From IMG/VR virus record IMGVR_UViG_3300047392_000154, positions 1 through 27,814 of that record: DNA of 27,814 nucleotides, one strand, 5' to 3'. A model generated the notes under the pieces. It saw only the letters and a program-made list of their open reading frames with translations, was not told where the DNA came from and ran no database searches. The position numbers and the translations under genes are program-made. Below, one piece after another: positions 1-18,127 of the stretch. The stretch's first letter is position 1; the number at the start of each line of letters is the position of its first letter. The DNA comes from a virus.

Positions 1-190
1 CACCGAATCCGCAAGCTGCGTCTTTGATGTCTACGTTAGCACCTAAAATGTTGATTGCAGTTGTTCCTGCAGTTAAACCAGCTTTAACAGTTAAATTGTT
101 AACAGTTTGTGGTTTTAAAATCGCGCGCGTAATCAAATCAGTTGATAACTGGTCAGTATACGCTGGTAATCCTGATAAATTAAATGACAT
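1..190 (-). CDS. Major capsid protein, N-terminal fragment (runs off window)
   Basis: The ATG is at 188-190 and the first 63 residues are visible before the window ends. The reading begins MSFNLSGLPAYTDQLSTDLI and continues with TRAIL and a Gly/Thr/Ala-rich stretch. This resembles the N-terminal arm of major capsid proteins of Bacteroidota tailed phages, which form the icosahedral shell in the HK97-type fold. The gene follows the scaffold gene after about 30 nt, the usual scaffold-to-capsid order. The same GLPAY..DQ and TRAIL words occur inside the protease-like protein at 953-2563. The identification is by motif and position; most of the protein is unseen. Confidence 0.75.
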   Translation of the reverse strand, partial: MSFNLSGLPAYTDQLSTDLITRAILKPQTVNNLTVKAGLTAGTTAINILGANVDIKDAACGFG

Positions 191-220: not shown

Positions 221-811
221 TTATTTTCTCAAAGATTTAATGAATTCGATTTTAGCATCGATTCCACCGAACTCTTCATTAGAAATGTTTGTTACTTTTG
301 GAGCAGCAGTAGCAGCTGGCATTTTTGCAAATTTCTCCATTTTGGTTCTCATTGCACCCATTTCTTCTTTAATAGAAGAAACTTCTTTTGCAACTTCTTC
401 AACAGCTTCGAAAACTGCTTTCATTTTCTCAGCAACTTTTTCAGTTACTTTTTCAATGATTGCTTCTTCCATCGCCACGTCCATTTTAGGTTCAGGTGCA
501 GCTTCACCAGAAACTTCAACTACTGCTTCATCAGAGATTGGTGCCTCATCTTCGATTTCTGCTTCTTCTGAAGAGATTTCTTTGATGATACCTTGAGCAT
601 CAACCTCGATTACAGTACCGTCTTCTAAAGTGTGGTAACCTTCAGGAGCTGGAGTTTTAGTAGAACCATCTTCAGAAACTACAAACACAGGCATTCCTGG
701 CTCTAATTTCTCATACTCAACAACAGTTACGCCGTCTTGTAATTTAGCTGATTCCAACCTAACTTCCATCCCTAAAATTTCACGCACTTGATTCAATTTT
801 GTTACGTACAT
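221..811 (-). CDS. Capsid scaffold / assembly protein
   Basis: The product has 196 residues. Residues 1-80 look beta-rich and contain a segment with LEDGTVIEVD near residues 62-71. Residues 83-115 are strongly acidic and Ala/Pro-rich. Residues 115-160 form a predicted coiled coil rich in Glu, Lys, Val and Met (EKVTEKVAEKM). The C-terminus (FGGIDAKIEFIKSLRK) is basic. An acidic linker, a helical coiled coil and a charged tail fit a scaffold that nucleates capsid subunits and is later removed by the head protease. It sits between the protease-like gene and the capsid gene, the expected slot. A terminator and an AT-rich leader precede it, so scaffold and capsid may be transcribed as a separate strong unit. 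No enzymatic motif is seen. Confidence 0.72.
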   Translation of the reverse strand: MYVTKLNQVREILGMEVRLESAKLQDGVTVVEYEKLEPGMPVFVVSEDGSTKTPAPEGYHTLEDGTVIEVDAQGIIKEISSEEAEIEDEAPISDEAVVEVSGEAAPEPKMDVAMEEAIIEKVTEKVAEKMKAVFEAVEEVAKEVSSIKEEMGAMRTKMEKFAKMPAATAAPKVTNISNEEFGGIDAKIEFIKSLRK

Positions 812-952: not shown

Positions 953-2563
953 CTATATATCGTTCGTGCCTAAAATCTTTTTAATTCTTTCATATGTTTT
1001 AAACGATTCAAGTTCTTCAAGATCTACAAGTATACCTTCGATAGAAAATCCACGCAATTCACCAGCTTTAACTCTTGCCCAAGTTTCTGCATCTTCAACC
1101 TTCACAGAAATCATCCATGATCCAATGGGCACGTTGTAACCATATAGCGTATTTGCTTTATCATCTACAGTTTCGACTAACCAGGACTCAAATATGTATG
1201 CACCAGCAGTATTCTCTTCGTGATCTGTATTTAATTCATGCACTCTACCTTCTTTAAAATACTTTAAAGCAATTTCTTTAATGGTTTCTGGTGAGAATTT
1301 AACAAAATACTTTTGACCGTCTTCATCTACTCTCAAGATTTTCATAGAAGGTATCATACAAGGACCTACTAAAATTTGTTGTTCTTCAGCAGCAAAACTA
1401 AAAATAGATTCATTAATAGTGTTATAATAACCATTTTTAGCCATATCTTTAGGTTTAATTCCAGCAGTACCAGCTGCAGGTCCTAAATCTTGTATGTATA
1501 TTTTACCATCTTTAGTAGATTTAACTAAAAAGTCATTCCATCTGTGTTTGCAATTTGGCCCGCCTTTATATTTAAAAAGACTATATGAAGCACCATTATG
1601 ACCAAATCCTGGATTAGCTATTAAACTGTCAAAAGATTGTATTTGTTGTTTAGTATAATATAAATCAGCACTAACCATTTGTCTACAAAAACTTCTTGAA
1701 TCAGCTCCAATATCACCCATATATTTGTAAAGTATCAATTCTCTATCTTTAGTTTGTGAAGCTTCAGCTGGATTTGTACCTGGTGTAATTGCTTGTGCAA
1801 ATTGCATATCAAATAGTTTACCTAAATCTTCTTCTTTAGTACCTATTTCTTTTGCCACTGCAACAATAGTATCTACTACGTATTGATCTTTGGTCCAAGA
1901 ATTGTCGCACTCAGACTGCGCTAAAATAGCTCTGGTAACAATATCTTTTTTCTTTTTAGGTATTTGATCTACATATGCAGGTAATCCAGTTACGTTAATA
2001 TCAAACTTCATACCTATTTCACCTATTGCATCTATCACATCTTGGTTGTTATCATAATGTTTTTGTATGCCAAGTTCTTTGATCTTCTCTATTTTAGCCT
2101 CATTGCTTCCAGTAGCAAATACTTTTGATGGATCTATACCTAATTCTTTGACAATTGGCATAAACTCATCTTTGTTTTGACCAGCAGAAATAACATAAAC
2201 TATTTCACCTTCTGTGATTGCTTTCTTGGCTAATTCTTTACCTCTTTCAGTATTTAAAGTATCATGATAATCAAATGAAACTTTAACTCCAGCCATTTTT
2301 TCATCCCAATATGAATAACAAATAGCTGCAGCTTGTGCTTCATCTTTACCTTCGTTAATTACATATGGTATACAACGACTAATAAACTCTTCTTCTGATT
2401 CACCAGAGCTTGGATTTACAAACTTTTCAACTTTTTGTGTATTAAAATAGTGAAAGTCCAGCATGATTGCTGGTTCTTCAACTAGCGAAATCTTTTTAAC
2501 ACCAGAAATTTCATCAGTTTCTAGAATACCAAGATCTACAATTTTCTTTTTATCTTTTTCCAT
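953..2563 (-). CDS. Composite XkdF-type prohead protease with HAD and MuF-like inserts
   Basis: This 536-residue head protein has a mosaic structure. Residues 20-47 (ISLVEEPA) match the start of XkdF-type phage head proteases. Residues about 385-515 match the rest of that family: VGPCMIP, ILRVDEDG, a His near 447, ESW at 459-461 and GFSIEG at 505-510. Between them lie about 340 inserted residues: a Cys motif (RC at 63-64, ICY at 81-83); a HAD-like phosphatase fold with FDYHDTL at 97-103, Ser125, Lys157/160 and Asp171; a GLPAYVDQ/TRAIL segment at 193-214 echoing the capsid N-terminus; and a Mu-F-like minor head segment at about 289-342 (SFCRQM, then GGPNCKHRW). The second Asp of HAD motif I is His100, so phosphatase activity is doubtful. 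It precedes scaffold and capsid, as a maturation protease should. Confidence 0.72.
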   Translation of the reverse strand: MEKDKKKIVDLGILETDEISGVKKISLVEEPAIMLDFHYFNTQKVEKFVNPSSGESEEEFISRCIPYVINEGKDEAQAAAICYSYWDEKMAGVKVSFDYHDTLNTERGKELAKKAITEGEIVYVISAGQNKDEFMPIVKELGIDPSKVFATGSNEAKIEKIKELGIQKHYDNNQDVIDAIGEIGMKFDINVTGLPAYVDQIPKKKKDIVTRAILAQSECDNSWTKDQYVVDTIVAVAKEIGTKEEDLGKLFDMQFAQAITPGTNPAEASQTKDRELILYKYMGDIGADSRSFCRQMVSADLYYTKQQIQSFDSLIANPGFGHNGASYSLFKYKGGPNCKHRWNDFLVKSTKDGKIYIQDLGPAAGTAGIKPKDMAKNGYYNTINESIFSFAAEEQQILVGPCMIPSMKILRVDEDGQKYFVKFSPETIKEIALKYFKEGRVHELNTDHEENTAGAYIFESWLVETVDDKANTLYGYNVPIGSWMISVKVEDAETWARVKAGELRGFSIEGILVDLEELESFKTYERIKKILGTNDI

Positions 2564-2570
2564 AGTATAT

Positions 2571-3053
2571 TTACTTTAATTTATCGGTCTCATTTTTGAT
2601 GTCTTTAGCTCTTGCTGACAATTCTTTAAAGTAATCCCAGAAGCCCTTCTTTTTAACTGCTTTAAAGTTTTCATCAATTGAAAATAATTCGATTGAGATT
2701 AATGTTAAAGCAACTAATTTAGTAGCTAATAAAGGAACGGTAAAGAATTGTTGAATGATGTCATTTAAAATAAATTTATCAACAGCAAAAATTAGAATTA
2801 CAGTTGCTTGATATAAAAACATCTTTGAGATGATCTGACTCAATTTTCTGGAGGTAACTGTTTCTTTTAGTTTTTTGGCTTTCCAAACGCCCATAATAGT
2901 ATCTGCAATAATACAAATACCAACTGTTATCATTATACCATGAATTGGTACTAAAAAAGCAGCTATTGCCATCATAATTCTATGTGCACTACTTTGTAAA
3001 GCTAATGCTAAATATTTTAATTGTTCCATAAAGCAGGCGTACAAGGTTTCCAT
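2571..3053 (-). CDS. Holin-family-like membrane protein
   Basis: The product has 160 residues with an N-terminal amphipathic segment and three to four hydrophobic segments: about 27-52, 78-97 and 104-122. The stretch between the first two (DTIMGVWKAKKLKETVTSRKL at about 46-66) resembles the toxin-secretion/holin family common in Bacteroidota phages. The C-terminus is charged (KKGFWDYFKELSARAKDIKN). Its ATG overlaps the tape-measure stop as TAATG, so translation is probably coupled. It could form the lysis pore. No endolysin is visible next to it, so another membrane role in infection is possible. A second Met at residue 9 is an alternative start. Confidence 0.55.
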   Translation of the reverse strand: METLYACFMEQLKYLALALQSSAHRIMMAIAAFLVPIHGIMITVGICIIADTIMGVWKAKKLKETVTSRKLSQIISKMFLYQATVILIFAVDKFILNDIIQQFFTVPLLATKLVALTLISIELFSIDENFKAVKKKGFWDYFKELSARAKDIKNETDKLK

Positions 3054-5458
3054 TATATTTTTGCTAAATCTGTGATACGTTTATCAGCTTCTTGTTGCGA
3101 TGTCATATCACTTGCGACAACATATGTTTTGAAGATAGGTGCTGCGTTATTGCCACCTCCATTTTCTGTTTGTATTGGTGCTCCACCACCTGCTTGATTA
3201 ATTTGATTTAATAAACCACCAAACATTGCAGTTGAATTTGCATTTATAACTGATTCACCATTTGATAACATAGCAGGAATAGAGTCAGAAACTCCAGTAC
3301 CAGCTCCAGATACGTAACCACCGCTTGCAAATTTACTTGCACTTGGTTTTGCTGCTGCACCTCCACCTCCACCACCAGAAATATTTCCAGTTGGTGTTTG
3401 CACTGACATAATCTTTTTAACGTTCATTAAACCACCAGCGATAGCCACACCCGCAGCAACTGCCGCTAATGCAGGACCAATAATTGGAATACCTACTAAT
3501 GATTTATAGGCTTTAGTTGCTGATTGATACGTATCAATAGTAGTACCAGCGATTGCAATTGCTTTACCAGCTACTGTATCTTGACCTGCTAAAGCAGATG
3601 CATTTTGTAATAATCCACTAATAGCATTCAAGTTAGCTTCTTTAGCTGCAGCAGCTGCATCATCAATGTCTTTTCTGGCTTTTGCATTCTCTGCTAATGC
3701 CATTGTTCTTTGATTTTCATTCTCAAAGGTCATGTTAGTGATGATGGCTTGATTAGCATCGTTTAATGCAATCTTTTCTGCATATGTAGTATCTTCTTGT
3801 TGGATTTGCCATTGATTGAAAGCCAATTGGTCTTCCATATCTTTTTGTTTAAATCCAGCTTCTAGTTCTTTAAATTTAGCATCATTAACTTCTTTAACTG
3901 CAGCAATCTTTTGACCTTTCTCTTGTTCAGATAATTCAGATGAATTAATTTCTGCAATTTGTTTGTTTAACTCTACTTCTAATTCTTGTCTAGCTCTTTC
4001 ACGAAGATTCTCAATACTCATTAAATATGAAGTATTCTTGATCTCTTCAAGTTCCTTTTGGAATGTAGCTTCTTTTTCTTTTTTATTTTCAGCTTGAGTA
4101 TCTAAAAGGTTTTGAGTCTCTTGAGCTTGTGTAGTATCTAATTGCTTTTGTTGCTCATATAAAGATTTTAGGTATCTTTGTTCTTCAATTGACAAATTCT
4201 TTTTCTTGGCATATTTGTCAATCTCAATCTGTAATAAAGCATCAGCATTCTTTTGTTGAATCTCTAATTCTTTTTGAGCTTTTAGATCTGCATCTTTAAT
4301 AGCATCAATCTCAGCTTTTTGCTTTAACTCTAAAATCTTTTTCTCAGACTCTACAGTTTTATCTTGTATTTCTTTTAAATGCTCTGCATATTTCTCTTTT
4401 CTTTCCTTCTCTTTTTCAGCAGCTTTTGCGTTTGCTTCTTTTTGTTTATCAGCCTTTTGTTTATCAAATTGAGCTTGATCAATTAGGGCTTGATTATTTA
4501 AATCTGCAACAGCAGCTTGAAGTTCTGCTAATTTCTTTTTCTTGTCATCATCTAACTCACCATCAATCTGTTGTAATTTTAATAATTGATTGATAGCTGC
4601 TGTTCTAGATGCAACTTCTTCAGCGTTAATCTTTTTCTTTTGTGCAAGTAATTGCTCTTCAGTTGCACCTTGTGCTTCCATTAGGGCTAATCTTCTTTTA
4701 CTTGCAGAAATCATTTTATTTTGAGCAGAACCTACATCATCTAATGCTGAAATAGTTTTCTCAGCGTTATCTCTTGTTTTAGCTGTTGAAGCATCGTCAA
4801 TTAAACCAAATGTTAAAAGAGATGCAAGATCTCTGGCTTTTGCAATAACAAAATCTATAGCTTCACCAAGTGGTGCAAATGCTGCACCAAACTTTTTAAC
4901 TGCTCCAATAGCAACTGTTACACCTAATACTAACGCAGCAAGTGCAGTTACAATTAGACCAATTGGATTGGCAGATAAAATAGCATTGGTAATTAAAGCC
5001 TCTTTACCAAAAAGTCTAGTTGCAACCGCTGCAGCCTTTTCAGTTGTAGTTCTCAATGCCACTGCTGCATCTACTTTTAATTCTGCAATTTGTCTAGCAT
5101 TCAACGCTGCGGTGATTAACCCGTTCGCTGTGGACGAGATCGTTCCTAAAGCTTTAGATTCTACTCCAAAACTTTTTAGAGCTCCTTCAGCAACATCAAA
5201 TGAGCCTGAGATACCACCTGCAAGATCATTGAACTGATCTTTTACTTCTTTGGTTCTTGTATCGTTTTTGAATTCTTTAACAGCAGCTTTGGCTTGTTGA
5301 ATTCTACCTACTATTTCTTCATAGGCAGCACTACCATAATCGGCACTAGCTGCTTCTTTAGTTAAATCTCTAATGGCACCTTGTAATTCAGTCAAAGATT
5401 TGACCGTCTGTTCGACACCATTTACTTTTATCGAGAAACCTACTTCGTTATTTGCCAC
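3053..5458 (-). CDS. Tape measure protein
   Basis: The 801-residue product has a typical tape-measure layout. The N-terminus (about 1-150) has repeated helical Ala/Lys segments. A hydrophobic region lies at about 155-190 (NPIGLIVTALAALVLGVTVA). A very long Lys/Glu/Gln-rich coiled coil spans about 230-620. A second hydrophobic segment lies at about 665-685, then a Gly-rich linker near 700 and a globular tail ending DLAKI. Such proteins fill the tail lumen, set tail length and exit into the cell envelope. The length fits a tail of roughly 120 nm, using the family rule of about 0.15 nm per residue. The only sensible start is GTG at 5456-5458. A hairpin and a TATATTTA motif lie just upstream. No sheath or tube gene is recognisable in the window. 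Confidence 0.85.
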   Translation of the reverse strand: MANNEVGFSIKVNGVEQTVKSLTELQGAIRDLTKEAASADYGSAAYEEIVGRIQQAKAAVKEFKNDTRTKEVKDQFNDLAGGISGSFDVAEGALKSFGVESKALGTISSTANGLITAALNARQIAELKVDAAVALRTTTEKAAAVATRLFGKEALITNAILSANPIGLIVTALAALVLGVTVAIGAVKKFGAAFAPLGEAIDFVIAKARDLASLLTFGLIDDASTAKTRDNAEKTISALDDVGSAQNKMISASKRRLALMEAQGATEEQLLAQKKKINAEEVASRTAAINQLLKLQQIDGELDDDKKKKLAELQAAVADLNNQALIDQAQFDKQKADKQKEANAKAAEKEKERKEKYAEHLKEIQDKTVESEKKILELKQKAEIDAIKDADLKAQKELEIQQKNADALLQIEIDKYAKKKNLSIEEQRYLKSLYEQQKQLDTTQAQETQNLLDTQAENKKEKEATFQKELEEIKNTSYLMSIENLRERARQELEVELNKQIAEINSSELSEQEKGQKIAAVKEVNDAKFKELEAGFKQKDMEDQLAFNQWQIQQEDTTYAEKIALNDANQAIITNMTFENENQRTMALAENAKARKDIDDAAAAAKEANLNAISGLLQNASALAGQDTVAGKAIAIAGTTIDTYQSATKAYKSLVGIPIIGPALAAVAAGVAIAGGLMNVKKIMSVQTPTGNISGGGGGGAAAKPSASKFASGGYVSGAGTGVSDSIPAMLSNGESVINANSTAMFGGLLNQINQAGGGAPIQTENGGGNNAAPIFKTYVVASDMTSQQEADKRITDLAKI

Positions 5459-5482
5459 TTTGTGTAAATCTTTTTATAATTA

Positions 5483-5490
5483 TAAATATA
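5483..5490 (-). promoter_or_regulatory. TATATTTA promoter-like element before tape measure gene
   Basis: TATATTTA on the minus strand ends 24 nt before the GTG start. GTTCAA lies 13 nt further upstream, the same arrangement as before the 14141 gene. It resembles the Bacteroidota -7 element TAnnTTTG. It is a candidate only, since the region is AT-rich. Confidence 0.4.
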
Positions 5491-5519
5491 AAGAAGAGGC
5501 ATTTTGAACACCTCTTCTT
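5491..5519 (-). terminator. Hairpin between the 1792-residue protein and tape measure
   Basis: The arms 5511-5519 and 5491-5499 (AAGAAGAGG/CCTCTTCTT) form a perfect 9-bp stem with an 11-nt loop. The following minus-strand sequence is TTTATATTTAT rather than a clean T-run, so termination may be partial. It overlaps the promoter-like element, which may re-initiate transcription. Confidence 0.55.
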
Positions 5520-5527
5520 CAAGTTTT

Positions 5528-8500
5528 TTAACAGTAATTAATTTCTGTTATAGTATATGGACCTGTTACGTTTAATGTATTTAAATCTATACAACTATAA
5601 CCTATTGGATAATTGTTAGCTCCAGCAGGAATTGTACCGAATATTAAATTACCTATTCCACAAGTTTGTGCGTTCCAGTTTATATCATAACCTGCGTCAT
5701 TTCTAACAAAAACACCTGCACATAATTCTGGTAAAGTACAATCTTCTTCACACAGACCAAATTGATCTACGTAACCATTAGCGCCTACATGCAGTGCAGT
5801 TAAGTTGAATGCATACCAACCTTGAGGCGCTGGTGTAGTACCTGTTGCATCTGCATACAATAAAACATTACCGCTCCAATTAGGGTAAATACCATACACC
5901 GTTTCTAAACTTGGTACACCTTGACCACAAGCTACACATTCATTTGTTGCACTATAAAATACATCAAATGGATATAAAGTATTACAATTACAAGAATTAA
6001 TATCTGTATAACTAATAATAACTCCATTGCCATCTACTTGTGCAATTGTGGCGCCATCAGAATACCAACCAGCTGCAGCAAATGCACTACCAGTAGAGTT
6101 TGCATATAATACAGTAGAAGTAACTAAACTTGTGTTATTACCATAAATTATAGTCGTATATGGTCTTGCACAATATGCAGCACATGGAGATTCATTACTA
6201 TATGAAATATCAAGCTGATATGTGGTTGGTGGTGTTAAATAGTTAACTTCTTCTAAAGTATAAACATAATCTGTATTAGGTGTATTTTCAAATCCAGCAC
6301 CTACATTAAAAGAAGTAATTGGACTACCATCTGTCTTGTTTATTTTAACTAAATTATTAGCTGAGAAACTTCTATAGGTTGCAAATCTACCCCATACGTA
6401 TAAACCACTTGCAACAACTTTTAAATCTATTCTATTAGTCGAAAATGGTGTAAATGGATTAGTTGAATTATTAAATGTAGTATCTAATGTAGCATCAAAG
6501 CCTAATTTAGCAACTCTATGTGAAGTTGTACCTTTATATGATGAGAATTCACCAGCTAAATATAAACCGGTTGAATCAACTTGTATAGTTTCAACGTCTT
6601 GGTTAAAACCATTACCTGCGGCTGTTGTAAATGTAGTATCTAATGAACCATCTAAATTTAAAGCACAAACATTAGATGTAAAAGTTGTGCCTTTCCATGC
6701 ATATGAACTTCCACCAGTACCAGATAAAGTATAATATAATTTATCATTGTATAACGCCATATCTAATACTACGGTATTAAATCCACCAGTAAATCCAGTT
6801 CCTACATTAAATGATGTGTAAATACTACCATTTGAATTTATTGCAATTGCTCTTCTAGCATTCCCAAATGGCGCAGAAATATCATTATAACGAATAAATG
6901 CACCCGCTACAAAAAGTTTTTCATCACCTGATATGGTTTTAAATTGAATAGATGTAATATAATCGTTAAAACCAGTGCCTGTAACAAATGAAGTATCTAA
7001 TGTACCATTTAAATTTAATCTAAATATTCTGCCTATTATTGTAGTTCCATTAAATGTAGAAAATGTACCAGTCACATATAATTTGCCAGTCGGCGACATG
7101 TATAATTTACCTTGTGGAAAATTAGGATCTGTGTTTGCTGATAAACCTGTGCCTACATTTGTGTTAAAGGTAGTGTCTAATGAACCATCTAAATTTAAAC
7201 ATGCAATTCTGTTTGCAATAGAATTACCTTTATATTGATTAAAGATACCTAACACATAAATTTTATCATTATATGTAACTATTGATTCTACTCTAGCTAA
7301 ATTAGGGTTTGTACTATTTGTAAAACCACCAATAACATCAAAACTAGTAGATAAATCTGCTATTGCAGTTAAACCAGCGATATCATTTAATCCAGTTGTA
7401 GTTTTATATTGTGTATATTGACCTCCAACTGCTAAAATTGAAGTTGTAGGTACTACATCTCCTCCAGTTACTAAATTATTAAACTCATATGTGTATATTG
7501 CATTAGTTGTAGAAGGTATTGTTAACGTTACAGTTGCAGGTGTTTGTGCAACTGAATCTTCGAATATGTCTAAATTAATTAAATAATTTGTTTGCATATC
7601 GCCATTAACAGTTGTTGTAGAATTAATAGCTCTCAATCTAACATTTTCTTCACAACTAAATATAACAGACTTTTCTGTATCATCTGGATCTAAAGCTTCA
7701 ATAGTTACTGTAACTACATCTACCCAAGTTGCTCCATTATCAAAAGATTTTTGAACTGTTGTTGAAGTAGTATAACCTGCTTTTTGAGATGATACATTTA
7801 CAGTACCGCTAACAGGTCCAACTAGACAAGTTGGACAACCAGAACAAGTACCAAATGCTGTTATATCACCTACCATACCAGTAACTTGTGCTACCGTAGT
7901 CGAATTAAATTTATACCATCCAGCAGGTGCATATGACGGTGTTTGACCAGCTGGTGGATTTGCACCTGTATTATCTAAATAAAGATTTGTATTTGATGCA
8001 AATGTTGGATTACTACCCCAAACTGTAGTAGTACCATTTGGACAACAACAAGCGTCACATAAAGTACTTGATTTACAAACAGTAAATGGATAATAAACTG
8101 TACAAGTACAATTTGAGCACAAAAAGTTATTAACTACTGAACCATTTGGCGTAACTTGTAAAGCTGTTGTAGCTCCAGTTTGTTTATAGAATCCTGCTGG
8201 ACCTGGTATTGTTAATCCAGAGTTAGTCCAAAATGAACTATTGCCTATAAAATTATTAGGTCCTACTGAGCCATACACTGTAATTAATGGTCCATTATTA
8301 CAACAAACATCACAACCTGTAGTATTTAAATGTACAGTATATGGATATGAAACTGGAGTACAGTTACAAGCTGATGTGTCTTGTACTAGTATTGCACCAT
8401 TAGAATTAACATAGATAGTACCAGACTGATCTGCATAATATCCAGGTGCAGCAATAATACCACCATTAGCATCTTGATATGCAATAGTCGAATCAACTAG

Positions 8501-10906
8501 TGTGGCACCATCTGCATAAATAATAACATTTTGAGATCCTGCGTACTGTGCACAACAATGAGCTGTACATAAATCGGTTGCACTATAACATGTATTAAAT
8601 TGTGTATATGTTGGAGGTGTAACAACTGGTAATGTAATACCAATGTTATTACCTAATTTAATTAATTGTACTCGACAGTTTGATACTTCACCAACTACAT
8701 AATCAGATACAGAGTTAACAAAATACCAAGCGTCTTTAACAAAAATATAGTCATTGAATTTTAAATCCAAGATTTCATTATAGTCTAATGCAAAATTGGC
8801 TTCTACAATTCTAGAATATGGATCGAATGTTACATCATACCATGTTTTCCAGAAAGTATTAAAACAACTAAATGCAGTTTGAGCCTTTGGATTTGTTATA
8901 GCTTGACCAATAGCATTATAATCATATAATGGCAATTCATTTTCCCAGTTTAAATCAAATGTAGTTGATGTTACTGGAAATTCTGAGTATTGACTCATTA
9001 ATGGATATTTATACATAACTTGTTCATTAACAGGCACACCACTTCCATCTTGATCAGTACCTGCGTACCATTCAATTGGTGCATTTTTTTCACCATTCCA
9101 AAAAACCAATCTCAATTTAGGTTGAATAGGTTCTCTTTTACCAACAGAAACTGCGTTAGCTCCAGTACCTTCAGATGCACCATTACCACCAGTATCTTTT
9201 GCAATATGCGGTATTAAAAACAATGCAGCTGCTTCTTCTGAGAAACCAGTACCAGGTTTTAAACCAATACCATCTAAAGGTGTTGGTGCAAATTGATCTT
9301 TATATTCTTTAGTTCCTTTGATTAATTCGTTGGTTGAGTCCAAGTTTAATTGACCAAAAGTTTGTTTGATACCTAATTGGTAGTTGTAGTTTAGATAATC
9401 TGAGTCTTCTTGATCTTTATAGATTTGGAATCTGGCTTGGTCAAAGAATAATGGTTTGATAACCATATCTTTAGACGTGTCAAGTCTAGCAGTCCAATCT
9501 TTTGATCTACCTTCTAGAATCCAATCTTTCCATGGCGTAATCGTAAAATGATTAGCTTGGAATTTAGATGGCACAAAAACTAGTCTATATCTGTTAATAA
9601 TAGACTTCATAAAATCAATCTTTCTAATGTTAGATGGCATAATACCATTAATAGACATTACATTAGGTGCATCTATACATTCAACTGCTGTATTAAAAAA
9701 TTGAATTTGTGTAGAACCAGAATAAACTGGACCAGAAATTCTAAATGTTCTAAATTCAAATTTAACACTTTGATTAGTAATTAAACTTGTATAAATTGAA
9801 GCATCTAAAGATTCTGTATTAACATATTGTGTAAAAGTCCATTGACCTACATCTAAACCAACTACTTGATTTGTTGCGATATCAATTATTTTAGCTTCCC
9901 AACCAATTATAGCATCATCTGGACTTGATCCATATAAATAAACGTCAACTTCACCAGCTGTCATTTTAAATTGATAACTACCATTTGCTGGCGCTGTGTA
10001 AATACCAGAAACTGTTTGACTTGGTGTAAAGTTATTACCTGGATCGTTAATTTCTACTGGAGTTCTCCATGGAAATTGTGCAGCAAGTACATTATATGTT
10101 ACACCTTGATTTTCTGCTCTAAATGTATTTGAGTTATCTAATGTAGCGGAAGCCACGTTATCAGATATAATATATTGATTTGTAAAAAATGAAGAATCTA
10201 AAAATGTAGAGTCATATGTGTAACCAGCTTCTTCAAAGATTTGGTCCCATAAAGCTTTAGCTCTAATTTGAGGTTTCCATTGTGTTAATCTATATGCCTT
10301 TGCAGAAGTTGGTGCTGTTGGATTTGTAAATGAATTATCAAAACCAGCAGATAATGTTGGTATATTAGGTCTATTGTTGTTGTCATATGTGTAACCCCAT
10401 TCAATTAAACCATATCTAACATCACCATTAAATAAACCGCCTTGAGTAGTCCAACTACTTGAGATGTTTTGCCATGTTTTAGAGTGGTTGTATTTGTTTA
10501 GGTTAACTTCATTCAAGAAACCACCGCCAATCTTCGAACCAAAATCTGAAGTAGAACCATAGAAAGTAATTTCGTATTCTACTGAGTTATCTTTTGAGTT
10601 AACGTTAATAGCATTTAATCTGATCGATCCATTTTCAAAAAAGATACCATTGTCAAGAATATACGCATCAGCTTTTATAGATGCATCAAAGTTTATTGAG
10701 TTAACATTAAAGACACCTTCAAAGTATGGACCATTGACAGCAGTATGAGGTACTTTAAACGTACGTGAGAATACAGAATTAGTTGCAGTAGGATCTATGA
10801 TATTAGCCACAGACAAATTTAATTTGATAGGCTCTTCAACTCTCAAATCTAATGCTACGTATTCTCCAGTGTGTTGTTGTTTTGCGTAAAGTTGTGGTTG
10901 CGCCAT
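5528..10906 (-). CDS. Giant tail/baseplate protein with Cys repeats and delta-60 beta-propeller
   Basis: The product has 1792 residues. Residues 1 to about 760 form a tail-hub or baseplate-like region (start MAQPQLYAKQQHTGEYVALD), in the style of long Bacteroidota phage structural proteins. Three Cys-rich repeats of 80-90 residues follow at about 767-1027. Each opens with a C..CC-type cluster, has an IYG/VYG strand and a GWYS/GFYK-like turn, and closes with a CxC or CxxC. Residues about 1030-1140 look Ig-like. Residues about 1186-1550 hold delta-60 repeats (LNLDGSLDTTF recurs), which fold as a beta-propeller. Two more Cys repeats lie at about 1566-1720, and a Cys-bearing tail ends the protein. 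It lies between a tail protein and the tape measure. The likely role is tail-tip architecture plus receptor or glycan binding. No enzymatic site is apparent. Confidence 0.68.
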   Translation of the reverse strand: MAQPQLYAKQQHTGEYVALDLRVEEPIKLNLSVANIIDPTATNSVFSRTFKVPHTAVNGPYFEGVFNVNSINFDASIKADAYILDNGIFFENGSIRLNAINVNSKDNSVEYEITFYGSTSDFGSKIGGGFLNEVNLNKYNHSKTWQNISSSWTTQGGLFNGDVRYGLIEWGYTYDNNNRPNIPTLSAGFDNSFTNPTAPTSAKAYRLTQWKPQIRAKALWDQIFEEAGYTYDSTFLDSSFFTNQYIISDNVASATLDNSNTFRAENQGVTYNVLAAQFPWRTPVEINDPGNNFTPSQTVSGIYTAPANGSYQFKMTAGEVDVYLYGSSPDDAIIGWEAKIIDIATNQVVGLDVGQWTFTQYVNTESLDASIYTSLITNQSVKFEFRTFRISGPVYSGSTQIQFFNTAVECIDAPNVMSINGIMPSNIRKIDFMKSIINRYRLVFVPSKFQANHFTITPWKDWILEGRSKDWTARLDTSKDMVIKPLFFDQARFQIYKDQEDSDYLNYNYQLGIKQTFGQLNLDSTNELIKGTKEYKDQFAPTPLDGIGLKPGTGFSEEAAALFLIPHIAKDTGGNGASEGTGANAVSVGKREPIQPKLRLVFWNGEKNAPIEWYAGTDQDGSGVPVNEQVMYKYPLMSQYSEFPVTSTTFDLNWENELPLYDYNAIGQAITNPKAQTAFSCFNTFWKTWYDVTFDPYSRIVEANFALDYNEILDLKFNDYIFVKDAWYFVNSVSDYVVGEVSNCRVQLIKLGNNIGITLPVVTPPTYTQFNTCYSATDLCTAHCCAQYAGSQNVIIYADGATLVDSTIAYQDANGGIIAAPGYYADQSGTIYVNSNGAILVQDTSACNCTPVSYPYTVHLNTTGCDVCCNNGPLITVYGSVGPNNFIGNSSFWTNSGLTIPGPAGFYKQTGATTALQVTPNGSVVNNFLCSNCTCTVYYPFTVCKSSTLCDACCCPNGTTTVWGSNPTFASNTNLYLDNTGANPPAGQTPSYAPAGWYKFNSTTVAQVTGMVGDITAFGTCSGCPTCLVGPVSGTVNVSSQKAGYTTSTTVQKSFDNGATWVDVVTVTIEALDPDDTEKSVIFSCEENVRLRAINSTTTVNGDMQTNYLINLDIFEDSVAQTPATVTLTIPSTTNAIYTYEFNNLVTGGDVVPTTSILAVGGQYTQYKTTTGLNDIAGLTAIADLSTSFDVIGGFTNSTNPNLARVESIVTYNDKIYVLGIFNQYKGNSIANRIACLNLDGSLDTTFNTNVGTGLSANTDPNFPQGKLYMSPTGKLYVTGTFSTFNGTTIIGRIFRLNLNGTLDTSFVTGTGFNDYITSIQFKTISGDEKLFVAGAFIRYNDISAPFGNARRAIAINSNGSIYTSFNVGTGFTGGFNTVVLDMALYNDKLYYTLSGTGGSSYAWKGTTFTSNVCALNLDGSLDTTFTTAAGNGFNQDVETIQVDSTGLYLAGEFSSYKGTTSHRVAKLGFDATLDTTFNNSTNPFTPFSTNRIDLKVVASGLYVWGRFATYRSFSANNLVKINKTDGSPITSFNVGAGFENTPNTDYVYTLEEVNYLTPPTTYQLDISYSNESPCAAYCARPYTTIIYGNNTSLVTSTVLYANSTGSAFAAAGWYSDGATIAQVDGNGVIISYTDINSCNCNTLYPFDVFYSATNECVACGQGVPSLETVYGIYPNWSGNVLLYADATGTTPAPQGWYAFNLTALHVGANGYVDQFGLCEEDCTLPELCAGVFVRNDAGYDINWNAQTCGIGNLIFGTIPAGANNYPIGYSCIDLNTLNVTGPYTITEINYC

Positions 10907-10907
10907 T

Positions 10908-12389
10908 TTAAATAGTTTGTATTGATTGCGTCATTGCTAATTTAATAGTAAAGGTACCTTGCACAAGTTTAGTTTGTCTAACATTCTTGGTTGTATAACT
11001 TGTATTTGTGACAGTACAGTTGTATGGTATATTATCAGCTTGTGTGTTATTAGGATCTTTGATATATGCCAACACTTGTGGTGATTTAACTAAACCTTCT
11101 AATAGATCTACTTGATCTTGAGTTAACCAGTCAGATTGAATTGAATACATTGTCTCTGCTGATTTAGCATATGGTTTAGTGCCACCGATAACTGTTGCAT
11201 TACCAAAAGGTACCGAGTTTGGTTGAGCTACTGGAACTGGTGTTGCAGCTGAATAATTTAACTGCTCTTGGTTATAGTTACTCTGTGTTGTATTTATACT
11301 TTTTTCTGTGAACATTGTAAAGTTTAAATAATCTCTACCACCTAAAGTATTGAACCAAGAAAGTCTAACTCTTGGGTACAAAGGCGCACAGTATTCTTGA
11401 ATTGTAAATTGTGATTTTAAAGTCGCTGGAGTGCTGAAACCACAACCAGTCGATTGGTTATATCCTTGAATAGAGATAGTCTGACCAGCAGAGACTGGTG
11501 TCCAACCAAGAGCTTGTGCCAGTTTATCAGGACTAGCCAATACATGGACTAAACTATATTTAGCATCTAATGTGGTGCCAATAGTGTTTGTACAGATTTC
11601 TCTTTGACCAAAACCAGAACTAGTTAACATTGGAACATCTGTTGTGTTTACAATTGTACCAGTTGAATCTTTTCTTTCAAATCTAAAACCAAAGATTGCA
11701 TATGGTTGTGAACCAGAGATTGGTGTCCAGTTTAAATAGCTCAAGACGATATTATCAAACTGATAAATGTCTTGATTTAATGGTGCATAATTTAAAGGAT
11801 GTGCTAAACCAATATTGTGGTCATAGTTTGTATTAGCATCGAATGGATTACCACCAAAAATACCAGATTGAAATGTAGATCTCATCTGCCATTGTTGTTC
11901 AAGGTCTGTCATTGATGCACAAAAAACTGTAACTGGTGTAGTTAGATTACCATTTTGTGTATTGCCTGAATAAAGCAAGAATGCTGGTTCACCTGCAGTG
12001 TCTGTTACACCATTGTAAATTTGTGTAATGCCGTTTAAAGTATACTCTTCACCTACTTTAATAAAATACTTTTGTGACATTAGGTTGTTATCGCTATAGA
12101 CTTTTGAGTTATCATAGTCAATCGTTAATTCACCTTGAGTCATTGCAGCGTTAACATTTGATGAATCTATGTAACCTTGTACTAGAGTCGAGATGTCAAT
12201 CATACCAAAGCCCGATGGGTTTGCACGTTGTTTGATTCTTTGGACTGCTGTTGCGTTACCTACTTCATAAATGTCAAAAACATATTTAAAGTCAGTTGAG
12301 TTTACTTTAGAACTAGCAACTGACCACACGATTGGGTTATAGGCTGGTGAAATCCAAACTGGTTTGTAGGGTACTGATGTTATCGCCAT
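10908..12389 (-). CDS. Tail / baseplate structural protein
   Basis: The product has 493 residues. It is rich in Thr, Ser, Asn and aromatic residues, consistent with beta structure. The N-terminus contains VWISPAYNPIVWSV and FKYVFDIYEV, a pattern seen in uncharacterised structural proteins of Bacteroidota siphoviruses. There is no signal peptide and no catalytic motif. It overlaps the preceding gene by 10 nt and ends one base before the start of the 1792-residue protein, so the two are probably translated together and assemble in the same tail-tip structure. An exact role (distal tail protein, hub or adaptor) cannot be assigned from the sequence alone. Confidence 0.55.
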   Translation of the reverse strand: MAITSVPYKPVWISPAYNPIVWSVASSKVNSTDFKYVFDIYEVGNATAVQRIKQRANPSGFGMIDISTLVQGYIDSSNVNAAMTQGELTIDYDNSKVYSDNNLMSQKYFIKVGEEYTLNGITQIYNGVTDTAGEPAFLLYSGNTQNGNLTTPVTVFCASMTDLEQQWQMRSTFQSGIFGGNPFDANTNYDHNIGLAHPLNYAPLNQDIYQFDNIVLSYLNWTPISGSQPYAIFGFRFERKDSTGTIVNTTDVPMLTSSGFGQREICTNTIGTTLDAKYSLVHVLASPDKLAQALGWTPVSAGQTISIQGYNQSTGCGFSTPATLKSQFTIQEYCAPLYPRVRLSWFNTLGGRDYLNFTMFTEKSINTTQSNYNQEQLNYSAATPVPVAQPNSVPFGNATVIGGTKPYAKSAETMYSIQSDWLTQDQVDLLEGLVKSPQVLAYIKDPNNTQADNIPYNCTVTNTSYTTKNVRQTKLVQGTFTIKLAMTQSIQTI

Positions 12390-13195
12390 GTTAATTTATT
12401 TTTTATTTTGGAGCTCCATTTGTCTACGATGGTTCTCTTCTTCTCTTTGTTTATTTTTTCTGTGTGCGAGGTAGTTGAAGATTCCAATAATACTAGTTCG
12501 TTCAACTTCTCCAGTTTTGGTAATATCGTCTCCTGCACAGTAGAATATGATTTTGCTCCAGTTTCTAGCAGATCTAACATGATCTGGGTCGTTAGGTCGA
12601 TCATTGCTTTCTCTCTCAGCGTCGTCTGTGGATTCTGTGTCAAAGAGCTGAGAGTAGTTTCTACGTAATACTTTGACACTGCTAAAAAAAAATTAAATGC
12701 ACCCGTTACATATTTAACAGGCAAATGCAAGAACTCTTCAGCTCTTGTCATTAATGTATCTGAGTTATAGGCTTCAACTTCCATCCACTTTTCAGTGATT
12801 TGTACTGCTGGTCTATAAAGGATTGCCATCATGATGTGCAATTTCTTTTGACTCATAGGATCTGTTTTTAAAACATCCATATCTGCAAACTCACCTAATG
12901 TAATTTTACTCATATCTAAAAAGCCATACAATTCACCTTTGTGAACAAAGTTTTTGTGAAATGGTGTTGTGTCTTCTAAATTTAAATAGTTTTCAACTAC
13001 TGCATCCCAGATAACAATAAACTGATGCTTCTCTAGCTTCTTTAATTCATTCAGGTCACACTTTGAAATGTGGCTAATGATTTCCATCTTGGCACTAAAA
13101 TCTTGACGTACAATGAGATCCTGTATGTCATAATACTGTTGGATTGTTACATCCTCTATTTTATATTCTTTGCCTGAAATTTTAAATTCTATCAT
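12380..13195 (-). CDS. Putative tail assembly chaperone-like protein
   Basis: The product has 271 residues. It starts with a small beta-hairpin-like segment (IEFKISGKEYKIEDVTIQQY). A helical body follows with ITLGEFADMD (about 98-107) and LHIMMAILYRPAV (about 119-131), a pattern I associate with proteins encoded upstream of tape-measure genes in Bacteroidota phages. The last 40 residues are Lys- and Ser/Thr-rich. Its start overlaps the previous stop as ATGA. A tail assembly chaperone is the most natural role in this slot, but two large tail genes intervene before the tape measure. No programmed-frameshift partner was found. The assignment is tentative. Confidence 0.4.
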   Translation of the reverse strand: MIEFKISGKEYKIEDVTIQQYYDIQDLIVRQDFSAKMEIISHISKCDLNELKKLEKHQFIVIWDAVVENYLNLEDTTPFHKNFVHKGELYGFLDMSKITLGEFADMDVLKTDPMSQKKLHIMMAILYRPAVQITEKWMEVEAYNSDTLMTRAEEFLHLPVKYVTGAFNFFLAVSKYYVETTLSSLTQNPQTTLREKAMIDLTTQIMLDLLETGAKSYSTVQETILPKLEKLNELVLLESSTTSHTEKINKEKKRTIVDKWSSKIKNKLTWR

Positions 13196-13674
13196 GATAT
13201 GTAATCTTTTATTGTCTCTCTGACTAAACGTTCCATTGAAACATTTAATTTGTCTTGGACTAATTTATTTACTCTACTTTCAAAACCATCCATAGCAGTC
13301 CAGTTTTGTGCTCTAATACCCATTGTACCTTTACTGTAACCCATAAAAGGCAAACCAAAGATACCATTTTGTCTAATAGTATCAAATTCATTATGTCTAG
13401 GACCAGAACCAAAGTTAGTTGCTTGTGCTCTTTTACGTACACCTGCAGGTAAAGCATCTAAATCTATAAATAATTCCCATTGGTTGTCTGCACCTTTTTC
13501 AAATTTAATCATATTAGGTGTCAAAGAACGAGCTAATTTACCTGTTGCATATGGGTTTTGTGGTGTATTACCAGGTCTTGGTACTTGTTGACGTAGACGT
13601 GGAAACATAAATTGACGAATTGAATCGCCAACTTGTTTCATTTGCATGTCTAGTATTTCTTGTATAGTTGCCAT
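13192..13674 (-). CDS. HK97 gp10-like head-tail / tail completion protein
   Basis: The product has 160 residues and is basic. It has an N-terminal helix, a segment with NPYATGKLARSL (about 41-52) and a second with GFESRVNKLVQDKL (about 133-146), followed by a helical end. The pattern of a helix, then a tGkLarSl-like turn, beta strands and a C-terminal helix matches gp10-like minor tail proteins that join the tail to the head. Starts and stops are coupled on both sides (TAATG upstream, ATGA downstream). Position in the gene order supports the role more than sequence does. Confidence 0.5.
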   Translation of the reverse strand: MATIQEILDMQMKQVGDSIRQFMFPRLRQQVPRPGNTPQNPYATGKLARSLTPNMIKFEKGADNQWELFIDLDALPAGVRKRAQATNFGSGPRHNEFDTIRQNGIFGLPFMGYSKGTMGIRAQNWTAMDGFESRVNKLVQDKLNVSMERLVRETIKDYIS

Positions 13675-14141
13675 TACGATACAGGATTATTACAATTATC
13701 TAAAGGTGATATAGTTTCTATTTGCAATTGACAAGTCCAACCACAAGTTGAGTTTTTATAACCTTCAAAAAATGGTGTTGCCACTGCAGGTAAATTTATG
13801 TTATATCGAAAATCTTTCCAAGTAGTTAATCTATATTTAGCTAAAATATCTCGCAAGATTTCCATTGTGTTTGAGTGTGTACGCTCTTCAAGATCTAATG
13901 AAGATTTAGCCAAGTCCATAACTATTAAGTCGAAGTCGTATGTTGTCGAACCTTCAGTAATAGTGGCTGGTTGTGGTATTAACATCACATATGGATATTT
14001 GGCTGAAACCTGTTGGTCATCAGTTGGAATTTCTACCATGGATTGAGGTCCACAACGAAAAGTCTTGATAGCTGGGTGGTCATTGCATATTTGTCTCAAT
14101 GATTCTACCACATTTCTATATGTTGAACTATAAACTGCCAT
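13674..14141 (-). CDS. Tail terminator/completion-like protein
   Basis: The product has 155 residues with a mixed alpha/beta pattern. It has an N-terminal helix (YRNVVESLRQICNDHPAIKTF), strands around KYPYVMLIPQ (about 68-77) and TTYDFDLIVMDL (about 86-97), and a helix at about 102-121. The order helix, strand, strand, helix resembles tail-terminator folds such as lambda gpU or HK97 gp10-neighbour proteins. It is the first gene after the element downstream of the terminase gene and opens the tail block. Its ATG has a TATATTTA motif 25 nt upstream. No defining motif is visible. Confidence 0.45.
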   Translation of the reverse strand: MAVYSSTYRNVVESLRQICNDHPAIKTFRCGPQSMVEIPTDDQQVSAKYPYVMLIPQPATITEGSTTYDFDLIVMDLAKSSLDLEERTHSNTMEILRDILAKYRLTTWKDFRYNINLPAVATPFFEGYKNSTCGWTCQLQIETISPLDNCNNPVS

Positions 14142-14166
14142 TCTTTTTAAATTTGTTTGTTATTAA

Positions 14167-14174
14167 TAAATATA
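14167..14174 (-). promoter_or_regulatory. TATATTTA promoter-like element opening the tail block
   Basis: TATATTTA on the minus strand ends 25 nt before the ATG at 14141, with GTTCAA 13 nt further upstream, as before the tape measure gene. It sits directly after a terminator hairpin, a sensible place to restart transcription for tail genes. Confidence 0.42.
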
Positions 14175-14212
14175 TCGTTTTTAGAAATTGAACGGTTACA
14201 GCGACAATAAAT

Positions 14213-14248
14213 TTAAAAAATAGTGGTGCGTTAGCAACACCTATTTTT
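14213..14248 (-). terminator. Terminator downstream of the terminase gene
   Basis: On the minus strand AAAAATAG (14241-14248) pairs with CTATTTTT (14216-14223). The stem continues through GTG/CAC with a small bulge and is followed by a T-run. It ends the terminase transcript and forms the lower-coordinate end of repeat copy A. A diverged counterpart hairpin occupies the same place beside copy B. Confidence 0.65.
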
Positions 14249-14366
14249 GGTTTATAATTCTTTTAGAATTATTTACCTGGTCCCTAGAGGACCAACCTTT
14301 AGCGCTTGAGGGACCAACCTTTAGCGCTTGAGGGACCAACCTTTAGCGCTCGAGGGACCAACCTTT
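14248..14366. repeat. Iteron-like element, copy A (3.5 units of 22 bp plus palindromes)
   Basis: Plus-strand units of GGACCAACCTTTAGCGCTTGAG begin at 14289, 14311 and 14333 (the third has CTCGAG), with a partial unit at 14355-14366. Beside them lie GGTCC/GGACC arms (14279-14283, 14289-14293) and an AT-rich palindrome (ATAATTCT at 14254-14261, AGAATTAT at 14265-14272) inside an outer GGT/ACC pair. Bases 14248-14322 are identical to 22138-22212. The terminase stop codon overlaps the last partial unit. Iterons beside an AT-rich dyad suggest a replication origin; a packaging site next to the terminase gene is an alternative. Confidence 0.85.
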
Positions 14367-15591
14367 AATCAATTGGACTACTTGCTCTACGACCATTTGC
14401 AAAGGTGTATTGTCCACCTTTTGGTTTTGAAAGTGCATAACGTATAGCATCTATTGCGTGGTTGTGTTCGTCAATAGGTTTGTCAGAACCTGGTTTCCAT
14501 GAATACAAGAATGCTTCATCGTGTAAGTCTGAACTATTAGGATGCATGTAAACTTCATACTCTTTGAGTGTGTTAATACCAGCTTGAATTGAATCTGGTC
14601 CTTTGTATGCTGGTTTAACATTAAAACCAGCTCTTTTTAGATCTTCAATAGATTTAGGTTCTGCAGAGTCTGCAATTATTTGATCTCGTGAAGTAATACC
14701 AAGCTTTTTCATTTGATCCGCCAAGTCTGCATTCGTGAGTCCTGGCGAGTAGATCAATTGCTTTAAATAAAGTTTGTTATTTTTCTTTTTAACCTCGACC
14801 AAAGATGCTGGATCATTAGAAAACCCAAAATCCAGACCGTATACTGTATCGTATTCACCTTGTGGGTCTGGTGTACCAACTTGCCAGTTCTCGAAGATTC
14901 TACCTACGATACCATCTAACCATTTGCCTTCAATATGGTGTGCATAGTATTCTGGATCTAAATCTTTCATACGTTCCCACTCTGCAATCTTTTTAGGATC
15001 TAGGTTTTCTTCGTTGTCTTTGTATGTGGTGTGAATAAACTCATGATCGTCAAACCACTTTGGGTTAGGTTGACCATCAATATAAAATCTTTTATGAATC
15101 CAATGTCTCTTTGAAGTAGGGTTAAAGAGGATAAAGACCTTTCTTTCAGAGCCTTTTGATCTAAATGAGTCATTTAATTTGATAAATTCTTCTTCTGATG
15201 GTAACTCTGTAGCTTCATCTATTAATAAATGGGTTACACCTGCTAAACCTTTACCTTTTGCAGTCATTGTACCATCTTGTAGTTTCATAGCATGTGTAAT
15301 AACCATATTGCCATTTAGGACATTGGTCATTTCATCGCCTTCGATCTTGATAAATCTTTTAATGTTCCAAGACTCAGCTAAATCAAGAATATCTCTATAG
15401 ATGGATGATTTGATTGACTTTTGGGTATAACGAGATACAACACCTCTGAAATACTCTTCGCCCATTAATCTGATTAAAAAGAATGCCGCGGCTTGCGTTG
15501 ACTTGCCTGATCCACGTCCACCAGAAATCAGATAATATGTTTTATCTGAGTGAAACATTGGTGCATATGGGTCTAGGATTTTAAAGTCCAT
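14365..15591 (-). CDS. terL: Terminase large subunit
   Basis: The 408-residue product is the DNA-packaging motor and nuclease. The ATPase has Walker A SGGRGSGKST (23-32) and Walker B HLLIDEATE (121-129), with the coupling region LFNPTS near 155-160. The C-terminal RNase-H-like nuclease shows Asp254 (YGLDFGFSNDPAS), Asp308 (IIADSAEPKS) and Asp381 (HAIDAIRYAL), the expected acidic triad. Length and motifs fit the PBSX/SPP1 type. The ATG overlaps the previous gene by 11 nt. The stop codon lies within the first unit (transcription sense) of the iteron-like element. The TerS-like gene lies about 1.4 kb upstream, separated by a sigma-like gene and small proteins. Confidence 0.96.
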   Translation of the reverse strand: MDFKILDPYAPMFHSDKTYYLISGGRGSGKSTQAAAFFLIRLMGEEYFRGVVSRYTQKSIKSSIYRDILDLAESWNIKRFIKIEGDEMTNVLNGNMVITHAMKLQDGTMTAKGKGLAGVTHLLIDEATELPSEEEFIKLNDSFRSKGSERKVFILFNPTSKRHWIHKRFYIDGQPNPKWFDDHEFIHTTYKDNEENLDPKKIAEWERMKDLDPEYYAHHIEGKWLDGIVGRIFENWQVGTPDPQGEYDTVYGLDFGFSNDPASLVEVKKKNNKLYLKQLIYSPGLTNADLADQMKKLGITSRDQIIADSAEPKSIEDLKRAGFNVKPAYKGPDSIQAGINTLKEYEVYMHPNSSDLHDEAFLYSWKPGSDKPIDEHNHAIDAIRYALSKPKGGQYTFANGRRASSPID

Positions 15592-15784
15592 TGGCTCTAA
15601 TCTCTTTTTTTAATCTAGTTATAACTTTGTTTACACACGCAGAGCAAGATGTTACTTGATCATTAGCGCCTGTAATATCATTATAAAGATCAAAGATTAT
15701 TTTAGCTTCATTTGGCGTAAAGACTTGTTTAGCTGAGATTAAAATCTTTGCATCTACTAATCTGTGTAATATGTCTTCGTTCAT
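15581..15784 (-). CDS. Small conserved-looking protein with a CxxC
   Basis: The product has 67 residues and is mostly helical. The N-terminus is LHRLVDAKILISAKQVFTPNEA, and the end holds CSACVNKVITRLKKEI, a single CxxC followed by a basic amphipathic helix. One CxxC alone could bind metal only as a dimer or with a partner. It overlaps both neighbours (ATGA upstream, 11 nt into the terminase gene), so it is co-translated with the packaging genes. I do not recognise a specific function. A role beside terminase or in head-tail joining would be guesswork. Confidence 0.6.
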   Translation of the reverse strand: MNEDILHRLVDAKILISAKQVFTPNEAKIIFDLYNDITGANDQVTSCSACVNKVITRLKKEIRANGL

Positions 15785-15972
15785 TTTGATTTATTTTGTT
15801 TGTAATCTATTATAAAGCCTATGGCGACTATAATGTTCATACCGCAGCTCATTAGAATTTCGTGTAAATCTTCATACACGTTTAACATTAAATGGACATG
15901 TCCTAAACTCCAGAATGGAATAGCCAAGTTTTGACTAATCCAAACTAAAGTCCATTTAATAAAGTGTTTCAT
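15781..15972 (-). CDS. Small membrane protein
   Basis: The product has 63 residues. A hydrophobic N-terminal stretch (WTLVWISQNLAIPFWSLG) and a second at about 44-55 (MNIIVAIGFIID) suggest two membrane passes with a Lys-rich C-terminus. Its ATG overlaps the stop of the preceding membrane protein as TAATG, and its stop overlaps the next start as ATGA. Two adjacent small membrane proteins in a late phage operon could serve lysis or superinfection control. No family is recognised. Confidence 0.55.
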   Translation of the reverse strand: MKHFIKWTLVWISQNLAIPFWSLGHVHLMLNVYEDLHEILMSCGMNIIVAIGFIIDYKQNKSK

Positions 15973-16250
15973 TAGTAGTCAAGCCATTTTTCAATTATCA
16001 GAGTGATGGCGCCGCTTGCGAACATAAAGACCAAGGAATATACACCAACCCCAGAATATAACAAGACCAATAAAGTACTCCATTGTGATAAACAAAAGCT
16101 ACAATTAAATGGCTTTCTTTCTACGTCTAGGTTTGTCAGTACTTTGAATATTTTCAGTATCTTGTGATACCACGGGTTCCGAAGCAACGACACTATGGTC
16201 AATGACGTTGATGTGCTCAAGGCTAGACTCAGTAATAATTGGTTTAACAT
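15972..16250 (-). CDS. Small membrane protein with a CxxCLSxW motif, overlapping the upstream gene
   Basis: The product has 92 residues. A hydrophobic N-terminal segment (LNQLLLSLALSTSTSLTIVSLL) is followed by a basic linker, KPFNCSFCLSQW at about 47-58, and a second hydrophobic segment (STLLVLLYSGVGVYSLVFMF). A basic linker, CxxCLSxW and then a membrane span is a pattern I recall in small phage membrane proteins of unknown function. The first 48 or so codons overlap the previous gene out of frame by 146 nt. I keep the long start because both halves fit the pattern, but no ATG lies nearer the motif, and a non-ATG internal start is possible. Its stop is coupled to the next start. Confidence 0.6.
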   Translation of the reverse strand: MLNQLLLSLALSTSTSLTIVSLLRNPWYHKILKIFKVLTNLDVERKPFNCSFCLSQWSTLLVLLYSGVGVYSLVFMFASGAITLIIEKWLDY

Positions 16251-16440
16251 TTTCTTCTGCTTTTTTTACATTTAAAAATTCAACTTCAACATCAGCGCCT
16301 ACATTATACTTCTTGCGCCAAAATTCGATGTTGCGTTCTAATCTGTTTTCGTCTGATCTAAATTCTAAATCAGTTCCTGTGAATTTCCATTGAATTCTGT
16401 TGTCGATGACGTCTTTACCGTCTACAATAAATTTAAACAT
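16105..16440 (-). CDS. Unknown protein with acidic linker and basic C-terminal tail
   Basis: The product has 111 residues. Residues 1-60 look like a small alpha/beta domain (MFKFIVDGKDVI, then QWKFTGTDLEF and RNIEFWRKKYNVGADVEVEFL). Residues 61-100 are acidic and Ser/Val-rich and probably disordered. The end is strongly basic (KPRRRKKAI). The last 48 or so codons also encode the start of the membrane protein at 15972-16250 in another frame. A folded core with a tolerant, disordered tail is what one expects where two genes overlap. It follows the sigma-like gene after 38 nt. No function is recognised. Confidence 0.6.
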   Translation of the reverse strand: MFKFIVDGKDVIDNRIQWKFTGTDLEFRSDENRLERNIEFWRKKYNVGADVEVEFLNVKKAEENVKPIITESSLEHINVIDHSVVASEPVVSQDTENIQSTDKPRRRKKAI

Positions 16441-16478
16441 AGTAATTTGGTTTATTTTTAATATTTATCCTAATTAAT

Positions 16479-16949: not shown

Positions 16950-16972
16950 ATGTAGAAGCTATTTTTAAAACT

Positions 16973-17008: not shown

Positions 17009-17015
17009 TTAGTTA

Positions 17016-17448: not shown

Positions 17449-17459
17449 ATGTGAGTTTA

Positions 17460-18110: not shown

Positions 18111-18127
18111 CTTGTAGTTTTTATTTT

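Follow-up and report, generated by a model that had tools for sequence, protein, structure and literature searches.

Previous work on T4 showed that the head protease and the internal proteins (IPs) lie within the prohead core, that a CTS peptide brings the IPs into that core, and that gp21 trims the IPs, Alt, the vertex protein gp24 (10 residues) and itself, some of the products being injected (PMC9958956). Phages that infect Bacteroidota are able to carry large protein cargo in both head and tail, as crassviruses demonstrate (PMC10172136). Polyvalent proteins and MuF fusions, in the retrieved passages of Iyer et al. (2017, PMC5512222), are multi-domain mosaics on head proteins and are proposed to be packaged and injected, and a mosaicism survey (Smug et al. 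2023, PMC10684548) reported ongoing shuffling of fragments within phage proteins. The head protease described here is of this known kind, a mosaic head-associated protein, and it resembles the proteins of the survey in the shuffling of its fragments. What is new is that a protease is the hub, that one palette of modules sits on unrelated proteases and portals of bacterial and archaeal viruses, and that a capsid tag lies inside the protease. In architecture the protein fits the polyvalent proteins as those passages present them; it differs from the systems described there in that its module M8 is not detectably MuF and that the host protein is a maturation protease. Modules M1, M2, M3, M7, M9, M10 and M11 are not described in the retrieved passages of PMC5512222, and in a term search the main text of PMC10684548 had no occurrence of "portal" or of "protease". 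The literature searched, which covered few subscription journals, yielded no description of the palette; this is not proof of absence.

The window, by which we mean the whole stretch of DNA analysed, is a virus contig of 27,814 bases, and all features given below lie on its minus strand. The protease gene (953..2563) is a clean ORF of 536 aa with an ATG start and no internal stops, and it encodes a head maturation protease of the XkdF type, in which a module array of 353 aa lies between N-strand and core. It is flanked by a holin-like gene and, downstream, by a scaffold-like gene (221..811), which matches phrog_24921 over positions 210-310 (E 4e-4), a part that P12024-type phages have as a fusion with the protease. 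Next after the scaffold is the gene for the major capsid protein; its N-terminal 25 codons (MSFNLSGLPAYTDQLSTDLITRAIL) lie at 116..190 and it continues beyond the window edge, a full-length relative being L004:6769-7704. The XkdF protease of Nonlabens phage P12024S, encoded by that phage's first gene, has the same N-strand, core, His and Ser positions and neighbouring scaffold and capsid genes. It differs in having a 16-aa linker between N-terminal segment and core, where the window protein has its module array, and in having the scaffold fused to the protease, whereas the window has a separate scaffold gene. The gene order of the window (953-19282) is unusual: the portal (18128-19282) and DUF6712 come first, with the large terminase (14365-15591) and the genes for the tail next, and only after the tape measure and holin genes come those for protease, scaffold and capsid. 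A 1792-aa protein of the tail region (5528-10906) has repeated Cys-rich units (CNCTPVSYPY..., CDACC) beyond its N-terminal part.

The original prediction placed protease landmarks at both ends of the protein, and both were recovered. The N-terminal strand segment (residues 5-41, ISLVEEPAI; 2441..2551), with its landmark SGVKKISLVEEPAI, shares homology with the start of minimal XkdF proteins (E 1e-19 with an HMM of the N-strand), so the split of the protease is real. The catalytic core (residues 395-514; 1022..1381) is matched by a core HMM (E 7e-61) and, on residues 389-511, by Pfam PF14550 (XkdF, Peptidase S78_2; E 1.5e-16, 61 bits against a cut-off of 24). The presumed catalytic residues, His448 (NTDH; 1220..1222) and Ser507 (GFSIEG; 1043..1045), lie in conserved motifs and are invariant across 16 aligned sequences. 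We take the gene to encode a gp21-fold (XkdF/S78_2) head maturation protease, predicted to be active. That inserted domains split it, as had been proposed, is borne out by its relatives, which are usually contiguous: a scan with the contiguous form gave at least 595 relatives, and in the best 80, which belong to another lineage, the linker from N-strand to core was 12-14 aa in every case (80/80). A search of genome contigs with alignment A1 gave no match. An AF2 model of one contiguous homolog (L093, residues 1-185, 67 sequences; pTM 0.76) had pLDDT values of about 85 in the N-terminal strands, 80-94 in the core and below 50 in the linker. The solved structure most like this model was T4 gp21, with Z 8.6 over 121 residues (next best, 3.6) in an alignment that begins at model residue 26 and has the first strands outside its range. 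The model supports a picture in which N-strand and core would form one domain with a disordered, insertion-tolerant loop. For the window protein itself, AF2 with 16 sequences gave a mean pLDDT of 53 and left the N-strand unplaced, with residues 20-47 at about 24, so that the packing of these residues with the core is judged by homology only.

The insert is multi-domain, as predicted, and spans 353 aa by HMM boundaries; the single fixed insert with several roles that had been envisaged gave way to a swappable module array, in the window M1, a HAD domain, M7 and M8, in that order. M1 (residues 47-88, EEFISRCIP...AAAICYSYW; 2300..2425), two helices with Cys, corresponds to the predicted Cys motif (HMM E 5e-25). 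The predicted HAD-like domain (residues 92-182; 2018..2290) is likewise upheld, its part of the AF2 model (pLDDT about 80) resembling the solved HAD phosphatases human phosphoserine phosphatase (Z 9.4) and T4 Pnkp 3' phosphatase (Z 9.1, rmsd 2.0 over 89). Because these matches are tied with universal stress proteins (Rossmann-like), the fold call leans also on motifs of relatives. Such relatives were found in IMG/VR beside the module M3 (L061, L069, L096, L102, L108 and L113), all six with the canonical SFDFDDTL, and a tblastn search of the phage collection gave no match. The window's motif I, SFDYHDTL, departs from DxD (D98-Y-H100-D-T): Asp98 is kept and the usual second Asp is His100, so the activity of the module is uncertain. 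M8 (residues 277-348, SRSFC...YKGGPNCKHRW; 1520..1735) had been taken for a MuF-like segment, an assignment that we abandoned, as PF04233 had no match in the record at E 10 and hhalign with two true MuF sequences gave E 0.36-0.44. M8 is nevertheless a real conserved module, homologous to portal C-termini, among them the C-terminal arm of the Nonlabens phage P12024 portal. The window portal (18128-19282) is without that arm and M8 stands in the protease instead, so M8 has changed its host protein.

The original prediction missed that the major capsid protein of the same phage has its N-terminus copied at residues 185-214, here called M7 (FDINVTGLPAYVDQIPKKKKDIVTRAIL; 1922..2011). Residues 187-225 match the window's capsid N-terminus at 44% over 39 aa (E 7e-4), an HMM of capsid N-termini (MCP-N) matches the window protease (E 7e-5), and profile-profile comparison of M7 with the capsid N-terminus by hhalign, using small alignments, gave E 6e-6 and probability 85. 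Outside proteases, 28 of 29 matches of the M7 HMM were capsid-protein N-termini, the remaining one being an unrelated ORF (E 0.12); the best-scoring capsid N-termini came from distant phages (MALNVAGLSAYVDQ, E 2e-3), and five-fold shuffled ORFs gave a best E of 0.28. Many of the single capsid matches are weak and several are closely related, and it is the exclusive capsid N-terminal position that carries the evidence. M7 lies within the first 15 or so residues of the capsid protein and is a linear motif in protease inserts, where it occurs with or without a following M8 (L049, L050, L056) and so moves independently. In two clades an R/K difference (ITRAIL versus ITKAL/IL) is matched between protease and capsid protein, which may reflect a single event on the tree. 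Over M7 alone dN/dS was 0.85, a value from 32 codons, which is too small a number to judge by. The Met ahead of M7 is not conserved, and we therefore set aside the idea of a hidden separate gene with its start there.

Since M7 carries the capsid N-terminal sequence, protease and shell appear to share a recognition tag, which would serve for cutting or for docking. On the first reading, which we prefer, the active protease most likely would cut both the capsid protein and itself at M7-like tags. Some proteases of N-M3-core architecture are without M7 and yet their capsid proteins retain the motif, so M7 does not serve as the release site in every case. Alternatively, M7 could be a docking peptide that mimics the capsid N-arm and fixes the protease to the shell or scaffold, with no cleavage there. 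Docking is a possibility that we rate as less likely than not. A linear motif found at the capsid start and in protease inserts, with M8 or alone, and agreeing in its R/K variants between the two proteins, is what docking would give, but a shared cleavage site would give the same sequences, and the R/K agreement may be the one tree event already mentioned. Docking concerns the role of M7 alone and is compatible with the modules being either passengers or assembly parts, as discussed below.

Searching with only the core recovered relatives at 31 loci; those with a complete insert have M7 and M8 in common and differ in the segments ahead of M7-M8. In one of these relatives, L004 (89% identical), the position of the HAD module is taken by a Zn ribbon (M2) plus a domain of 100 aa (M3), the DNA of the window phage and L004 being 87% and 92% identical on the flanks of these non-homologous inserts. 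In L010 and L012, with flanks 99% and 97% identical, M2 is exchanged for M1; between L016 and L025 it is M8 that is exchanged, and L012 and L013 are near-identical until the core and divergent thereafter. Between the window and L004, dS is 0.10 over M7-M8 and 0.76 in the core, so the pieces have had different histories, as in a recombination mosaic. For most module pairs dN/dS is 0.08-0.31 (the M3 pair L008/L032 and the M5 pair L018/L019, aligned in the wrong register, are left out), so most modules are under selection. The insert is an exchangeable module set, not one unit. Local HMMs distinguished 22 architectures in 49 intact XkdF proteins, with linkers of 12-561 aa, in a set partly selected through M3 and hence not free of bias in its architecture frequencies. 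Among the best 80 of the contiguous lineage the modules are at the C-terminus rather than in the linker, as M3-M9 (30), M3 (15), M3-M6 (12), M3-M3-M6 (6) or M3-M3 (2), so that M3 is present in 65 of the 80, with M9 or M6 added in 48. The other 15 have no modules, either in the protease or within 3 kb of it, so the modules are dispensable for the protease itself.

The modules are not confined to XkdF proteases. By Pfam, the M3-bearing proteins longer than 180 aa (n=60) included 22 XkdF, 17 HK97-type S78 and 3 Clp-type proteases, 6 portals, and 7 with DUF5824, the named but uncharacterised family that is M6. L061 and L096 encode HAD-M3 followed by an apparent HK97-type protease, and M6 stands ahead of an S78-like protease in Salinibacter phage 1_25. 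L068 and L114 are portal-M1-M3-M8, with M1 in the portal C-terminal arm, and M9 and M6 follow the portal in DSL-LC01. Tailed viruses of haloarchaea carry the modules at up to 53% identity: gp11 of HGTV-1, a prohead protease, contains M3, and gp9 of HRTV-28 is portal-M3-M9-M1-like-MuF, the M1-like part being assigned by eye. M3 is also present in HRTV-4 gp30 and in Vibrio phage 1.122.A (gp6), where it is N-terminal in the protease/scaffold protein. Free genes exist as well, of M1+M3 (for example L047, L109 and L112), of M3 in Synechococcus phage S-CBS4 and Salicola phage SCTP-2, and of M3+M6 in Roseobacter phage CRP-823, whose gp40 lies between the portal and capsid genes. M3-like free genes (100-130 aa) occur in the chromosomes of many bacteria and are common in Rhizobiales, sphingomonads and Actinobacteria; their neighbours gave no single clear context. 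One such Xanthomonas chromosomal protein (L239:2917-3852) joins M3 to a lysine/alanine-rich tail that is weakly histone H1-like (E 0.006, below the model cut-off).

To account for these architectures, we propose that the loop between N-strands and core is a hot spot at which modules would be gained, lost and swapped by recombination. As the protease would be built into the prohead, modules fused to it would be carried in without a targeting signal of their own, and fusion to the portal likewise would place a module in the prohead. T4 cargo, IPI-III and Alt, is instead encoded by separate genes with the CTS peptide. Modules cut at M7-like tags would be freed in the head as internal or injected proteins, as T4 gp21 trims internal proteins; the shared fold was found with the contiguous homolog, and the likeness in trimming prohead-carried proteins is proposed. 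The modules could also be degraded along with the protease, and the free M3-like genes of bacterial chromosomes, which may have no tie to a phage head, count against this reading too. From these comparisons we infer a prohead location, cleavage at M7, retention or injection, and a function for each module; that the modules are passengers fused to the protease and freed in the head in this way seems to us an even call. The presence of the same modules on head proteins of unrelated bacterial and archaeal viruses suggests a shared way of loading heads. More tentatively, and with rather less confidence, we suggest that bacterial and archaeal tailed viruses draw on a common pool of "rider" modules, loaded by fusion to prohead-built proteins and, in viruses of the Bacteroidota type, freed or anchored via a peptide like the capsid N-terminus. 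If so, head maturation proteases would double as cargo-loading vehicles, and this would account for the puzzling extra domains in many long "prohead protease" and portal genes; M1, M3, DUF5824, M9 and others would be families testable as injected or head-internal proteins, for which cultured carriers exist among Salinibacter, Roseobacter, Vibrio, Halorubrum and Halogranum viruses.

The modules might instead do their work during head assembly: while still fused they would bind DNA, scaffold, shell or portal, and they would then be destroyed or discarded, with no delivery. They do sit on components of the head under assembly (three families of protease, and portals), the 53% identity of M3 between archaeal and Bacteroidota-type viruses is more like a structural role than a host-specific effector, and the lysine-rich, weakly H1-like tail of the chromosomal M3 protein hints at nucleic-acid binding. 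An assembly part should hardly differ between near-identical phages, however, or be missing altogether from 15 of 80 related proteases and their surroundings, and we regard this explanation as rather unlikely. That illegitimate recombination has built up the insert neutrally, at a loop that tolerates it, is improbable: although the contiguous homolog model shows a disordered loop where the insertion would fall and the content of the insert is highly variable, the low dN/dS of most modules already disfavours it, as does the recurrence of the same few modules on unrelated proteases, on portals and among viruses of archaea. An intein-like element that is spliced out of the protein would also sit between two halves of one domain, but with no Pfam intein match, and with inserts that are shuffled among relatives and whose parts occur at protein termini and as free genes, it is scarcely credible.

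Several further segments were seen beside the modules above. M5 (L018:81-1988, L020:2593-4500; GYCFQIAQFLFYALGG...THWYVQNKETGRIVDLS) was judged by eye to resemble a Cys-His enzyme, for example a transglutaminase or cysteine peptidase; it had no family match, and in phages it gave two weak matches only. M11 (L045:2807-5113, L050:1-2013, L056:240-1916) is Cys-rich, with the pattern CGNCAFF...GYC..FDFKCAA.RTCDAW..GGP, and could bind an iron-sulfur cluster. In L056, M9 is duplicated in tandem. Segments that by eye are TUDOR-like (Hva1_TUDOR type) adjoin M3 and head proteases (L210:2995-4299, L038:1136-3802) and are a candidate further member of the palette.
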